A DNA stretch of 37,105 nucleotides from Chloroflexota bacterium (GTDB taxonomy: Bacteria > Chloroflexota > UBA11872 > VXOZ01), in assembly GCA_028874195.1 (NCBI GenBank), contig JAPPLM010000075.1, forward strand, positions 1-37,105, read 5' to 3'. This document shows positions 523 through 8,356 of the stretch, in pieces. Under the pieces are notes generated by a model. It was not told the origin of the DNA, did no database searches, and was given only the letters and a program-made list of their open reading frames with translations. A program made the position numbers and the translations under genes. Every line of letters starts with the position of its first letter. The first letter of the stretch is position 1.

Positions 523-2043
523 CTACCGCTGCGCGCCGGTCTCCGCCAGCAAACCGTCGCGCAGCTCGCGTTTCAGCACTTTGCCCATGGTGTTGCGGGG
601 CAATTCGTCCACGAAGTAGACGTCGCTGGGCACCTGGTAGTCCACGCTGCGTTCGCGGCAAAAGTCGCGGACATTGCGGGGCGTAGCCTCCGTGTCAGCG
701 GCGGGGTCTTTCACCACCACGGCCACCACCTTCTCGCCGCGCAGGTCGTCGGGCAAGCCGAACACGGCGGATTCTTTCACGCCGGGGCAATCGTTGAGCA
801 CGCGCTCGACCATGGGCGGATAAACGTTGAAGCCCTTGGTGATGATGAGGTCGACTTTTCTCCCGATGAGGGTCAGGTAGCCCTGTGGATCCACAAAACC
901 GAGATCGCCGGTGGCGAAATAGCCCTCGTGGGCGAACGCCTCGGCGGTGGCTTCCGGCCGGTTCAGGTAGTGGTCGAAGATCACCGGGCCTTTCACGTGC
1001 ACCTCGCCCACGGCGTGGCCGTCCTTGGTGGTGGAGCCGTCCTCGACCATGGTCATTTCGATGCCGTCCAGCGGCAGCCCCACCGAGCCCTGCACACTGG
1101 GCTGATCTATGGGCAAGCTGGCGATAACGTGGCTCTCGGTCATGCCGTAGCGGTTGATGAGCGGATTCCTTAAAATACCTTCCAACTCTGGTAGCACTTC
1201 CGGACGAATTGGCGCGGAACCGCAGGTGAAGAGCCGCACGTGCGACCAGTGTTTGGCGTGTTCACGAAACTCCGGCCGCCCGAGAAATTGGTAGTACATG
1301 GGCGGAATGGCCATGAAGACCGTGGCGCGGTCGATGAGGTCCAGGGTGCGGATGGGATGGAATTGGTCGGCCATGAGCATGTGCGCGCCGGTGAGGAAAT
1401 TCACGTGGCTGGCAAACGAAAGGCCGTGAATATGGAAGAACGGCAGCACGTTCACGAGCACGTCGTCCGGCGCAAACGCCCAGCAGTCGGCGAGCGAACG
1501 CACGGCCGCCCCGAGATTGACGTGGGTGTGCACCACGCCCTTGGGCTGGCCGGTGGTGCCGGAAGAGTAGAGCAGCAGCGCCCAGTCCGCGGCGGTAGAA
1601 TCCGGCAAAGGGGCCGTGGCTTGCGGCTCTAGCGCCAGGAAGTCGTCGGCGTGCAAGACACCCCGCAGCGGAGTCTCCTCATCTTCTACCAGCGCCTGCA
1701 GCACCGGCAATTCGGCATCACCCCCCACCGCCAGCACCGCGCCGCTATCCCGCGCGTAGTATTCCATCTCACGCGGCGTGAACTTGAAGTTGAGCGGCAG
1801 CGAGACACCGCCGGCCCGTATCGCCCCCAAATGCGCCAGCAGCAGCGCGCGCTTGTCCGCCGTGTAGAGTATGACGCGCTCGCCGGGCTCCAAGCCCTGT
1901 TTCTGCAAATACCCCGCCGCCGCGCGCGTGCGGGCGTCCAGCTCGGCGTAAGACCACGTCGCGTCCTGATACGTCAGCGCCGGCCGCGCCGCAAACTGCG
2001 CGAACGCCGCTTCAAGCTGCGTACGAAATGACTCATACTCCAT
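523..2043 (-). CDS. Acyl-CoA synthetase (AMP-forming), MatB-like
   Basis: This ANL-superfamily enzyme would activate a carboxylic acid as acyl-AMP and transfer it to CoA in the cytoplasm. The sequence shows the P-loop-like motif [11 protein letters not shown] near residue 160, the aromatic/Thr motif INRYGMTES, the hinge region YFATGDLG...[16 protein letters not shown], and the C-terminal catalytic lysine in [13 protein letters not shown]. Its length (506 residues) and the [12 protein letters not shown] and [10 protein letters not shown] segments resemble malonyl-CoA synthetases (MatB/ACSF3), but medium- and long-chain ligases share them, so the substrate is open. I chose ATG at 2043; an in-frame TTG lies two codons upstream. 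It is divergent from the HTH-nuclease gene, with an 81 bp shared upstream region, and the GMC remnant lies just downstream. Confidence 0.9.
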
Positions 2044-2074
2044 CGGCAAATCCCTTTATGCCAAGACCAGCAAA

Positions 2075-2113
2075 TATCCTATTTTGGGATACCAAGTTTA
2101 CTCAAGGTATGCT
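2075..2113 (+). promoter_or_regulatory. Promoter with overlapping inverted repeats upstream of HTH-nuclease gene
   Basis: A possible promoter is TTGGGA (2084-2089), an 18 bp spacer and TATGCT (2108-2113), placing the transcript start only a few bases before the ATG at 2125. Two inverted repeats overlap it: TATCC-N7-GGATA (2075-2091, over the -35) and ATACC-N12-GGTAT (2089-2110, over the spacer and -10). The downstream gene begins with an XRE-type HTH, so autoregulation through these sites is a reasonable inference. No clear Shine-Dalgarno sequence is visible. Confidence 0.4.
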
Positions 2114-2124
2114 CTTGTCTAACC

Positions 2125-2973
2125 ATGAAACTGCCTCTATCCGAATTCTACGTGCGGTTGCAGCGACTACTTGTCGCGGCGCGGCGAGCCAATGGCTTGA
2201 AACAGTCGGAGGTAGCTGCCCGCCTTCAGGTACCTCAGTCTTTTGTCTCAAAGTACGAGCGAGGCGAACGACGACTAGACGTGATTGAGTTCTTGCAGGT
2301 CTCTCAAAGCCTAGATGTGGACGCCTGTGAGCTTCTGATGAAAATCGGTATTGGTCGAGACTCTTCGAAGCCTCCCAATATTCTCGAACGATTATATCTG
2401 AGTGCAGACAACTTGACGAAGCTCGTCGATGCAAACCCTAGCTTATGGGGCATGCTACTGGGTTATGTGGCAGAGCATAAGCTACAGGAGCTATGGCTTT
2501 CGGGAAGTGAAGTCAAGTATCTTGGTAAGTCTGATGACCACGACCGATCCAACAAAGGAGATCATATCATCGAATACCAAGGTGAGCAGTTCGTTATTGA
2601 GAGTAAGTCTCTGCAATCACGGATGGTTCAAAGAGAAGGGAACACCTGGTATGGCAAAGCACAAGTAGACGCGAGCGATCGCCGTACTGTCACCCTAGAA
2701 GACGGAACTCAACTTGAGACTACACTGCTAATGGTCGGAGAATTTGATGTGCTCGCAGTGAATTGCTTTGCATTTGAACAAGAATGGAATTTTGTCTTCG
2801 CCAAGAACTCTGACCTACCAAGAAGCACCTATAGGAAATACCCCGAACGAGTTCGTGGTCAATTACTTGCTAGCCTTGTATCCGTTACATGGCCTCCTGA
2901 GCCACCTTTCACGGAAAACTTACTGGAGGTTCTCGATCAACTGCTAAGCGAACGCAGATCCGCGAGAACTTAG
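2125..2973 (+). CDS. HTH (XRE-type) fused to PD-(D/E)XK nuclease, probable restriction endonuclease
   Basis: Residues 10-75 form an XRE/Cro-type helix-turn-helix ([25 protein letters not shown]). The remainder looks like a PD-(D/E)XK nuclease: GD at 145-146, then a hydrophobic strand ending in E159-S-K161 (FVIESKS), with a possible helix glutamate near E117 or E122. A strand containing [13 protein letters not shown] follows, then [14 protein letters not shown], as in several HTH-containing restriction-type proteins. Its stop lies 9 bp from the stop of a convergent DNA methyltransferase, so a Type II-like restriction-modification pair is the best reading. The fused HTH may play the part of a separate controller (C) protein. 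GC content is visibly lower than in flanking housekeeping genes, suggesting acquisition. The recognition site is unknown. Seen: motifs and pairing. Inferred: cleavage activity. Confidence 0.75.
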
Positions 2974-2982
2974 GGGAGTCAA

Positions 2983-3705
2983 TTATCTTTGCGTGGCTTT
3001 AACGAACACCAAGAAGTATGAATGGTTCTTTCTCGCGTGAACCTGCTTCTTCAATCGGGAAATCACTGGTTTGTTGGAACGAACTACAACGAATAAGTCC
3101 TTTGTGTAAAAGCCCATAGATTCGTAGTCGTTGACAATCTCAACGTGTGTTAACCACTGCTTGCCAGCGCTTACTTCGTCCTGACATTTGACAATCAGGA
3201 CGCCGTTGGTTCTGAGAACTCGATAGGCTTCCCGTCCTGCCTCTCTGTAGAGTTCGGTCACAGCCGCATGCCACTTCGATTGACCGGGTCGTTCGTCCCC
3301 ATTCGAATAGTGCTCTCTAAATGCTGAGTGACTACCTCCTCCAGCCTTTTGGTTTGCTTGATTCCTATAGAATCCTTCCATGTATGGTGGGTCAAGCACT
3401 ACGCAGTCGATTTCACGATCTGCGTAAGGCAGATCTCGACAGTCTACCCCCATAGCAATGTCGGTGGCCCTGATGTCGTAAAGACCCTGATGTACCTTCT
3501 GCCAGAAAACACCCTTCCCCCACGTGACATCGGCTACGATGGCCCCTTCGGGAACATGCAACCGAAGGATTTGCGCAAATACATCCGCATTCCCGCTGAC
3601 ATGCGCAGACAGGATCGCATTGCTCGTACTAACGCCGCCTTGGACTCTGCGCTTATTCTGCTCTGACGCGACAACTTCATGTGGAATAAGAGATTTCATT
3701 CCCAT
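2983..3705 (-). CDS. DNA methyltransferase (DPPY motif), R-M partner
   Basis: This 240-residue SAM-dependent methyltransferase has an atypical motif I (VADVTWGKG, residues 57-65) followed by catalytic motif IV, DPPY at 105-108. The order I then IV excludes the beta-class arrangement. The C-terminus ends in [10 protein letters not shown], a signature I associate with small bacterial DNA N6-adenine/N4-cytosine methylases. DPPY favours adenine N6. No separate target-recognition domain is obvious; specificity may lie in residues 115-145 or near the C-terminus. It converges on the HTH-nuclease gene with only 9 bp between stops, so its likely role is to protect host DNA from that enzyme. I kept ATG 3705; another ATG lies two codons in, and no strong ribosome binding site is seen for either. 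Its GC content is as low as its partner's. Confidence 0.8.
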
Positions 3706-3939
3706 TTCCCGATGTCATCATCCGAATCTCACTAAGCATATTGCCTATTAGATTCGCTTAACAGTTACTCTATCTTGTACCAAAGACAATGAATGTTCAA
3801 GCTACGATAAAGCCAATTCAGAGTCTGACAGGGAATTCTTCATCGGGGGCAGGGCGTTGTGATCACGAAATGGCTGAACTGCCCTCGTTAACATCGCCTT
3901 CACTGCCTATGGCATGCCTTTTGTGTAGTACATTGGCAG

Positions 3940-6558: not shown

Positions 6559-7110
6559 ATGACGCGCGAAGAAGGCATGGAACTCGTCCACGAATTGCTC
6601 AAGAACAAGAATCTCGTGAAGCACTGTCTCGCAGTGGAGGCGTGCATGCGGGAACTGGCGCGGCACTTTGGTGAAGACGAAGACCTGTGGGCGTTGGCGG
6701 GACTGATGCACGACGCCGACTATGAAGCCACGGAGAAAGACCCGGCCCAGCACACGCTGCTGATGGCCAAGCTGTTGCGAGAACGCGACTGCGACCCCCG
6801 CGTGATCCACGCCGTTCAGGCCCACAGCGACGAGCACGGCGTGCCCCGCGAGAGCTTGATGGATAAGGCGCTCTACGCCTGCGACAACCTCTCCGGCCTC
6901 ATCATCGCCTGCGCCCTGGTGCGCCCGGACAAGAAGCTGGCTTCTGTGACGCCCAAGTTCGTGATGCGCAAGTACAAGGAAAAGGCCTTCGCCGCTTCCG
7001 CCAAGCGCGAGGAGATCGAGACGTGCAGCGGGATTGGCTTCACGCTGCCGGATTTCGCCGCCATCAACCTGACGGCGCTGCAGGGGATTTCCAACGAATT
7101 GGGGCTCTGA
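6559..7110 (+). CDS. HD-domain phosphohydrolase (HDIG-type)
   Basis: This 183-residue protein has a complete set of HD metal ligands: His22, His51-Asp52 (LMHDADYE), His89 (QAHSDEHG) and Asp109 (YACDNLSG). Such small HD proteins are cytosolic metal-dependent phosphohydrolases acting on nucleotides or phosphate esters; the sequence does not fix the substrate. The HD domain covers about residues 15-125, followed by a helical tail (VTPKFVMRKYKEKAFA) seen in many HDIG-type proteins from environmental bacteria. The start is supported by AGGAG just upstream of the ATG. The gene stands alone; the nearest downstream gene is convergent, across 289 bp of repeat-containing DNA. Confidence 0.88.
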   Translation: MTREEGMELVHELLKNKNLVKHCLAVEACMRELARHFGEDEDLWALAGLMHDADYEATEKDPAQHTLLMAKLLRERDCDPRVIHAVQAHSDEHGVPRESLMDKALYACDNLSGLIIACALVRPDKKLASVTPKFVMRKYKEKAFAASAKREEIETCSGIGFTLPDFAAINLTALQGISNELGL

Positions 7111-7207
7111 ACGAGTCTTCCAAAGGTATCGCGCGCATAAGCCACGTTATTGGCAACACGTAGTAGCCAACTCTTCGCCCACAATGATGTTCACTACTCG
7201 CGGCGAG

Positions 7208-7233
7208 GAGCGGGGGACAAGCCCCCGCGCTAC
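7208..7233 (+). repeat. GAGCGGGGG-type palindrome, copy 1
   Basis: A 26 bp unit built on GCGGGGG-ACAAG-CCCCCGC. Identical copies lie at 8619-8644 and 35766-35791, and a reverse copy with one difference near 33164-33189. All are intergenic. A perfect 7 bp stem could form in RNA or single-stranded DNA. Confidence 0.85.
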
Positions 7234-7245
7234 GGCAGAGCGACC

Positions 7246-7270
7246 GTCATTCCCGCGCACGCGGGAATCC
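7246..7270 (+). repeat. GTCATTCCCGCG/GCGGGAATCC palindrome, copy 1
   Basis: A 25 bp unit whose arms GATTCCCGC and GCGGGAATC-like sequences face each other. A second near-identical copy lies inside the start of modB (20693-20717). Partial copies flank two of the miniature elements. Confidence 0.8.
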
Positions 7271-7399
7271 ATCTTGTCCGCATGCCACCTATTCCCTGAT
7301 TCTCCGGCGAACGGCAAGCCGAGCACTAGCCCTCGCGCTGCGGCGTTTTTGCGAAAACTACGCTTACACCGGGAGGAAAACATTGACCGGGCGAGATGC

Positions 7400-8356
7400 C
7401 TAGAATGGCAGTTCCGTTCCAATCCCCTGCGCCTCGGCTTTGCGCAACACGTGCACGGCGGCGTAGAGGTCTTCCGCGGCGATGCCCTGGGATTCGTAGA
7501 CCGTAATGGCGTCGGCGGGACGATCATTCACCGGATGCCGTCCTGCCACCACCTGTCCGATCTCGACCACGTCCTCCCATTGCACGATGCCTGGCTCCAC
7601 CGCCGCCAGCAGATCACCGCACTCGAGCTTTGCGCCCTCCAGCGAATCGGTCGTGATGAGCCAGGCGCGCCGGAAGACCTCGGTGTCTAACTCCTGTTCC
7701 GCGAGCATGTTGTTGCCGGCGGCGTTCACGTGAGCGCCGGGCTTGAGCCACGCGCCCGCCAGCAGCGGCTGCTTGCTGTCCGTAATCGCCGCCACTACGT
7801 CAGCCGACTCCACCGTCTCTTGCGCACTGCCCGCCGCTGTCACCGGAATGCCGAGGGAGTCCGCCATCTCTTCCGCAAATGCTTTGCGCCGTTCCGCGTT
7901 CCGGCTGTAGACGAGCACTTGCGAAATCGGCCGCACGGCGCAGACCGCCTGTATCTGCGTCGGCGCCTGACGCCCCGTGCCGAGCACGCCGAGCACCGCC
8001 GCATCCGGTCGTGCCAGGTATTTCGCGGCAATGCCGCTGGCGGCGCCGGTGCGAATGGCGCCAAGCAGACCGGCTTCCAGCACGGCAAGCGGCCGCCCGT
8101 CCTCCGTGCTGTAGAGCGTGACCAGGAATTTTGCGCCCTTCCGCGTGGTGGTATAGACCTTGTGCCCAAAGACGCCGAGCCCCACGTCGCCAGCCGACAT
8201 AACGTGCATCATGCCATCTGGCAAGCGAATGCGGCGGCGCGGCTGGTTGCGGGCAGCGCCGGTGCCCAAGGCATGGAAACAGGCCTCCACTTGTGCCAGC
8301 GCCTCATCCATGGGCAGCAACTGGCGTACATGGTCTTCCGTAAGAAACCGGGCCAT
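7400..8356 (-). CDS. Ornithine cyclodeaminase / mu-crystallin family enzyme
   Basis: This 318-residue cytosolic NAD(P)-dependent enzyme covers the whole family length. It has a substrate-binding lid with RRRIRLPDG and the conserved Lys66 (GHKVYTT), the IRTGAASGIAAKYLA helix, and the Rossmann motif GVLGTGRQA around residues 123-131, followed by the ITDSKQPLL segment and the VNAAGNN loop. The family includes ornithine cyclodeaminase (ornithine to proline plus ammonia), alanine dehydrogenases and ketimine reductases; the exact reaction cannot be called from sequence. The start is supported by AGGAG 8 bases before the ATG. It is a single gene with no operon partner; a repeat-rich gap lies upstream. 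Confidence 0.9.
   Translation of the reverse strand: MARFLTEDHVRQLLPMDEALAQVEACFHALGTGAARNQPRRRIRLPDGMMHVMSAGDVGLGVFGHKVYTTTRKGAKFLVTLYSTEDGRPLAVLEAGLLGAIRTGAASGIAAKYLARPDAAVLGVLGTGRQAPTQIQAVCAVRPISQVLVYSRNAERRKAFAEEMADSLGIPVTAAGSAQETVESADVVAAITDSKQPLLAGAWLKPGAHVNAAGNNMLAEQELDTEVFRRAWLITTDSLEGAKLECGDLLAAVEPGIVQWEDVVEIGQVVAGRHPVNDRPADAITVYESQGIAAEDLYAAVHVLRKAEAQGIGTELPF

Follow-up and report, generated by a model that had tools for sequence, protein, structure and literature searches.

The window, by which we mean the whole 37,105-nucleotide stretch of DNA analyzed here, very probably carries a horizontally gained Type II restriction-modification system, a fused form within the NruI/Sbo13I family, with TCG^CGA as its expected site and with self-binding of the nuclease at positions 2075 to 2091. 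In the mechanism that we propose, the cassette would have arrived by horizontal transfer as an NruI/Sbo13I-family system. A single 282-aa protein, joining a C-protein-like helix-turn-helix (HTH) to a PD-(D/E)XK nuclease, would cut TCG^CGA, and a convergent gene with its own promoter would supply the protecting amino-methyltransferase. The fused protein would bind as an HTH dimer to 2075-2091, over the -35 element of its own promoter, and the nuclease would thereby sense and set its own dose. Relatives would often use tandem sites at the controller promoter and a further site on the methyltransferase side, and the window would be down to one complete site. The evidence comprises gene content, homology, a predicted fold, a conserved operator and an insertion, from which we infer cutting, methylation, the recognition sequence, and the binding and sign of the operator.

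The fused controller-restriction endonuclease (REase) gene lies at 2125-2973 on the forward strand, was called from its open reading frame and homologues, and holds both domains within one 282-aa frame. A first-pass annotation of this DNA had placed an XRE-type HTH at the N-terminus of the nuclease, and Pfam HTH_3 indeed matched residues 18-70 (E 4e-11). The surrounding domain (residues 7-74; 2143-2346, forward strand) had fold matches to 3f6w (Z 14.0), C.Esp1396I (12.0), C.EcoT38IS (11.6) and C.BclI (11.4) and also resembles C.AhdI, an XRE fold like that of the canonical C proteins C.AhdI, C.BclI and C.Esp1396I. AlphaFold2 modeled the whole protein with a pLDDT of 92.1. Because HTH domains filled the whole-protein fold search, the nuclease domain (residues 85-282; 2377-2970, forward strand) was also predicted alone (pLDDT 92.9, pTM 0.88). 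Its top structural match was I-Ssp6803I (2ost; Z 12.4, rmsd 4.2 over 140 residues, 11% identity), with the Holliday-junction resolvase Hjc clearly below it (Z 8.8). I-Ssp6803I, which we take to be of the PD-(D/E)XK class, is like the fused nuclease in the fold of this domain. It is, however, a homing endonuclease outside any restriction-modification pair, whereas the nuclease at 2125-2973 is paired with a methyltransferase.

The structure prediction that the first-pass annotation had proposed as a check therefore returned a predicted PD-(D/E)XK fold, with D...(E/Q)xK on adjacent strands. The GD...ExK core read earlier from the letters was recovered as G145-D146...E159-S160-K161, in which the putative catalytic residues are D146, E159 and K161 (2560-2607, forward strand). 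In the model, D146 stands at the start of strand 146-151, and E159 and K161 lie on the adjacent strand 154-163; D146 and K161 were invariant, and E159 was at least 90% conserved, across 33 aligned rows. The 2010 paper on NruI and Sbo13I, in its accessible text, predicted a catalytic DD-X21-EVK (PMC2890505). By count, the Asp of that motif corresponds to D137 here, and since D137 is likewise invariant, the catalytic Asp may be either D137 or D146.

Searches of Pfam, NCBIfam, PHROGs and PADLOC named no family for the nuclease domain beyond a weak Pfam NERD match (E 0.083), and PDB sequence searches with the nuclease gave nothing useful, with no PvuII chain at E up to 1. PvuII was not among the listed fold matches either, an absence that leaves PvuII orthology possible; homology to Sbo13I would place the nuclease outside the PvuII orthologues. 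The related nuclease of Vibrio cincinnatiensis (L054:6197-6964), which sits on a very long branch, has about 50 extra residues between the ExK strand and a conserved Q-x-D-x-S-D motif.

The partner gene (2983-3705, reverse strand) converges with the nuclease gene, with nine bases between the two stop codons. It encodes a 240-aa amino-methyltransferase of the M.NruI/M.Sbo13I type, matching phrog_24333 (DNA methyltransferase; E 1e-74) and Pfam N6_N4_Mtase. Motif IV, DPPY at residues 105-108 (3382-3393, reverse strand), was invariant in 22 of 22 rows. Convergence with a DPPY methyltransferase had been described correctly at first pass, but the motif I that had been called unusual is the norm of the family: D59, T61, G63, G65, V66, F67 and W68 were invariant in all 22 aligned methyltransferases. 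With motif I followed by motif IV, these enzymes form a distinct DPPY subgroup.

The family assignment comes from a Shigella boydii plasmid, pSB13 (5,424 bp), which carries a small HTH gene, a nuclease gene and then a methyltransferase gene in reverse. The window proteins were 56% identical to those of pSB13 over 192 aa for the nuclease, 70% over 223 aa for the methyltransferase and 41% over 66 aa for the HTH. Sbo13I is described as sitting on a resident S. boydii plasmid of 5.4 kb, where sbo13IC and sbo13IR run the same way and sbo13IM runs against them (PMC2890505). Since the size, origin and gene order of pSB13 fit this description, we presume that it is the Sbo13I plasmid, going by name, size, species and gene order rather than by a published accession. 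The window thus has a nuclease homologous to R.Sbo13I and oppositely directed nuclease and methyltransferase genes, and this homology to the NruI/Sbo13I system bears out the restriction-modification pair proposed at first pass. Sbo13I and NruI share with the window their homologous convergent genes, DPPY and motif I. They differ from it in their controller, which is a separate gene in Sbo13I and goes unmentioned for NruI in the accessible text, whereas that of the window is fused.

Sbo13I and NruI, the latter in use as a laboratory enzyme, both cut TCG^CGA (PMC2890505), and the identity between them is 46% for the REases and 49% for the methyltransferases (PMC2890505). Because the window pair is closer to the pSB13 pair than NruI is to Sbo13I, TCGCGA is the expected site, and the fused nuclease would by homology be expected to cut TCG^CGA. 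The methylated base is not predictable here because M.NruI and M.Sbo13I differ, the signs being of N6mA for the former and N4mC for the latter (PMC2890505). Avoidance of TCGCGA was dropped as evidence of specificity, as the nine sites in the window, against 15.0 expected, are too few to inform. No model of PADLOC-DB 2.0.0 matched the pSB13 nuclease (L101:3794-4465), and REases of the NruI/Sbo13I type may escape defence-system annotation as a family.

The same genome holds a second M.NruI-type methyltransferase (L116:4972-6191; G000:C69, about 6971-8190) that is 56% identical to the product of 2983-3705. It overlaps a 171-aa protein that hit type II REase models of PADLOC (E 4e-12) and, by BLAST, has no relation to the fused nuclease. 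Four genomes of the same genus keep this pair at 81-90% with the gene context unchanged, and G025 keeps it at 53-74%. Such a pairing of a family methyltransferase with an unrelated REase-like protein would fit a window system of the same family that has another specificity or is inactive, as would the broken frames of five relatives (L028, L047, L050, L052 and L053) and the fact that the isoschizomer argument is drawn from identity. We nevertheless regard this as unlikely, since the identities to pSB13 (56% and 70%) exceed those between NruI and Sbo13I (46% and 49%), and since both frames of the window (2125-2973 and 2983-3705) are intact and keep the conserved residues.

Homologues of the fused protein were collected from named genomes, and the best 80 of 366 relatives were kept; 37 held the nuclease domain and 43 the HTH only, the latter standing outside the co-occurrence count. 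A methyltransferase homologue adjoined the nuclease in all 37 nuclease-bearing loci among these best 80 of 366, in convergent orientation in 36 and in tandem in one (L055), and all three plasmids with the nuclease also carried the methyltransferase. Co-occurrence had been the other check named at first pass, and it came out in favor of a pair. A reading of the protein as an ordinary XRE regulator, or as an unrelated nuclease placed by chance next to a solitary methyltransferase, could draw on the abundance of HTH-only relatives (43 among the best 80 of 366) and on the viral methyltransferases that often stand without a nuclease. It is nearly refuted, however, by the 37 named-genome loci in which the nuclease domain is never without a methyltransferase, and by homologues on pSB13 that match a system for which restriction and modification are reported as demonstrated.

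Elsewhere (METHYLTRANSFERASE), the methyltransferase had a wider distribution than the nuclease. It is encoded at 34 loci in viral contigs, and at least four of these (L142, L152, L154, L163) also encode the nuclease, several of the stretches being short. In a phage collection, 12 records matched the methyltransferase and none matched the nuclease. Mycobacterium phage Wheeler (L144) and its relatives (H21-H26) carry a methyltransferase of about 61% identity without the nuclease. Phage copies of this kind could possibly act as counter-restriction genes, protecting against NruI-type restriction.

The controller is fused to the nuclease in only part of the family. Among the 37 loci, 13 had an intact fused gene, one (L028) a fused gene with an internal stop, and 21 a split arrangement, defined as a separately terminated HTH frame immediately upstream; in the remaining two (L035, L055), no HTH was detected within 1.5 kb. 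Because split homologues exist, the controller and REase parts of the fused protein are separable. A nuclease-domain tree with 14 fused rows (including the window) and 19 split rows (including two plasmids) needed seven changes of the fused/split label, at least four of them forced by well-supported branches, with states set from gene structure when an earlier tree was already known; that earlier tree, with cruder states, needed eight. The alignment (A1) left out four broken nuclease frames (L047, L050, L052, L053), the first tree left out a fragment (L002), and the second also left out L055, which has a very long branch, and kept L028 (fused, internal stop) and L035 and L103 (no HTH found upstream) without a state. 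A single origin of fusion, with all fused forms in one clade, was rejected (AU test, p 2e-7). Fused and split forms are interspersed on the tree, and the changes could be fusions or fissions.

Fused forms occur in Chloroflexota, Cyanobacteriota, Planctomycetota, Nitrospirota and Acidobacteriota, and L021 and L022, both from Dehalococcoidia, form a group with the window at a support of 100/100. The 2010 paper aligned a protein of Corynebacterium matruchotii whose annotation names an XRE HTH (PMC2890505); this protein is probably a fused member of the NruI family that was in view then, though undiscussed in the accessible text. In the same phylum as the window, a decayed copy (L002:811-1926; G074:C9) has a methyltransferase with a broken frame and, next on that strand, a truncated nuclease, for which we found no HTH.

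Upstream of the fused gene, the first-pass annotation had marked inverted repeats at 2075-2110. The first of these, TATCC-N7-GGATA at 2075-2091, stood up: it is a perfect 5+5 palindrome of 17 bp, a symmetrical, operator-like control site that is conserved in relatives across phyla, and nowhere else in the 37,105 bases does the family motif score 10/10. The second, ATACC-N12-GGTAT at 2089-2110, is off the family spacing and may be a chance occurrence. We scored the family motif upstream of 38 C or fused genes, namely that of the window, those of 35 named-genome loci and those of two plasmids. Of the 38 upstream regions, 34 reached at least 8/10, where the remainder of these loci predicted 1.1, and 20 reached 10/10, where that background predicted 0.14. 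About 387 kb contained 17 further 10/10 sites, every one at the 5' end of a methyltransferase gene, which makes the latter expectation a conservative one.

The palindrome overlaps a pair of promoter-like hexamers (2084-2113, forward strand), TTGGGA at 2084-2089 and TATGCT at 2108-2113, separated by an 18-nt spacer and placed alike throughout the family. The -35-like hexamer falls inside the first palindrome copy, and a second site, where present, falls in the spacer between -35 and -10. A -10-like hexamer of at least 4/6 lay 15-18 nt beyond the -35-like one in 29 of the 32 loci scored. A generic sigma-70 scan did not report a promoter at 2084-2113, the hexamer pair being weak alone. The ATG follows the -10-like hexamer by 11 nt, which would leave the transcript with little or no leader.

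In relatives, the operator often recurs. A second copy of at least 8/10 starting 15 bp downstream was found in 20 of 39 loci, a count with a slight bias toward tandem pairs because the choice of the first site was weighted partly by the second, and a site of at least 8/10 lay near the methyltransferase start in 27 of 39 (10/10 in 17 of these). The window lacks the tandem arrangement of canonical C proteins, its second-copy position scoring 4/10, with 4/10 and 5/10 at the corresponding positions of L021 and L022. A complete operator was also sought before the window methyltransferase; the best match was 6/10, and a methyltransferase-side operator in the window was dropped on that score. In overall layout, with the first copy as the one complete site, L021 and L022 resemble the window.

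An operator far above chance expectation, at a fixed position over a promoter-like pair, argues for self-regulation, and with such conservation the fused gene is probably under the control of its own product. The first-pass annotation had gone further and proposed that the nuclease represses its promoter; the self-regulation is supported by the conserved palindrome, but the same evidence does not establish repression as its sign. A lone site placed on the -35 points to repression, though activation is also possible, and autorepression in a single-site form is our preferred reading. A plausible competitor, to which we give somewhat less than even weight, is that the fused protein works as an activator-repressor of the canonical C type, which would first turn its own promoter on, giving a delay in a new host, and turn it off at high dose, after the manner of PvuII-type systems and CR.NsoJS138I. 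Its HTH fold is closest, among chains of known function, to C.Esp1396I, C.EcoT38IS and C.BclI, and tandem sites are common (20 of 39 loci). CR.NsoJS138I, moreover, cuts DNA and activates its own promoter, raising a reporter 23-fold (PMC3850674). By contrast, a conserved site on the -35, with any second site in the spacer between -35 and -10, fits more easily with repression, and the second site of the window scores only 4/10.

Autorepression from a single site could also extend beyond the window. We tentatively suggest, as a doubtful extension, that the NruI family went through repeated fusion or splitting under one cross-phylum operator, and that in the Dehalococcoidia-like clade the lone -35 site would leave the nuclease purely self-repressing and without control over the methyltransferase. 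We found neither the NruI-family operator nor its repeated fused/split changes in print, in a search in which most subscription papers were out of reach. A survey from 2009 reportedly covered C proteins and their sites.

The cassette (approximately 2036-3938) has a GC content of 48.3% compared with 59.3% for the whole window, and the transfer that the first-pass annotation had read from its low GC was corroborated by genomes of the same genus. Two of five (G004 and G005) keep the flanking genes side by side, 87 and 71 nt apart, and homology to the window ends at 2019 or 2035 and resumes at 3939; this empty site marks the cassette as an insertion. The DUF1801 gene has a different location in G001 and G003, and in G002 the insertion spot is filled by other DNA, about 1.2 kb long. 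The nuclease was not found in any of the five genomes, of which G005 is only 69% complete. The spot in G002 (L136:264-1022; G002:C64) holds a different gene of 252 aa, by eye of the endonuclease III type (HhH, iron-sulphur), and the site may be an insertion hotspot.

The first-pass annotation had also taken the controller of known C-protein systems to be a separate small protein, which the literature contradicts. Five PvuII-type controller-REase fusions were described in 2013, with activity shown for CR.NsoJS138I (PMC3850674), and a 2025 review, in its accessible text, repeats their existence (PMC12707154). As far as the accessible text goes, these fusions resemble the window in carrying a controller HTH at the REase N-terminus and symmetrical upstream sites, and some are convergent. 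Their REases are PvuII orthologues, whereas that of the window is of the NruI/Sbo13I type with another operator sequence. CR.NsoJS138I sets the precedent of one fusion protein able to cut as well as to regulate; this dual role is reported as demonstrated for NsoJS138I, whereas both activities are predicted for the window fusion. In Esp1396I, C boxes precede both the C gene and the M gene (PMC4824078), a layout that many relatives of the window system resemble, with sites at both controller and methyltransferase genes. The window differs from that published layout in having no recognizable methyltransferase-side site and a fused controller.

Fusion of controller and REase is thus an architecture already known from the PvuII family, which makes its occurrence in the NruI family a fine illustration, not an unexpected finding. 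The same architecture stands here in another REase family, interspersed with unfused relatives. With a concrete operator and a predicted recognition site, TCGCGA, the benefit of a controller that rides on its own REase becomes testable in pairs of fused and split systems. If the lone -35-site circuit of the Dehalococcoidia-like clade is real, it would be simpler than the C systems with which we compared it.
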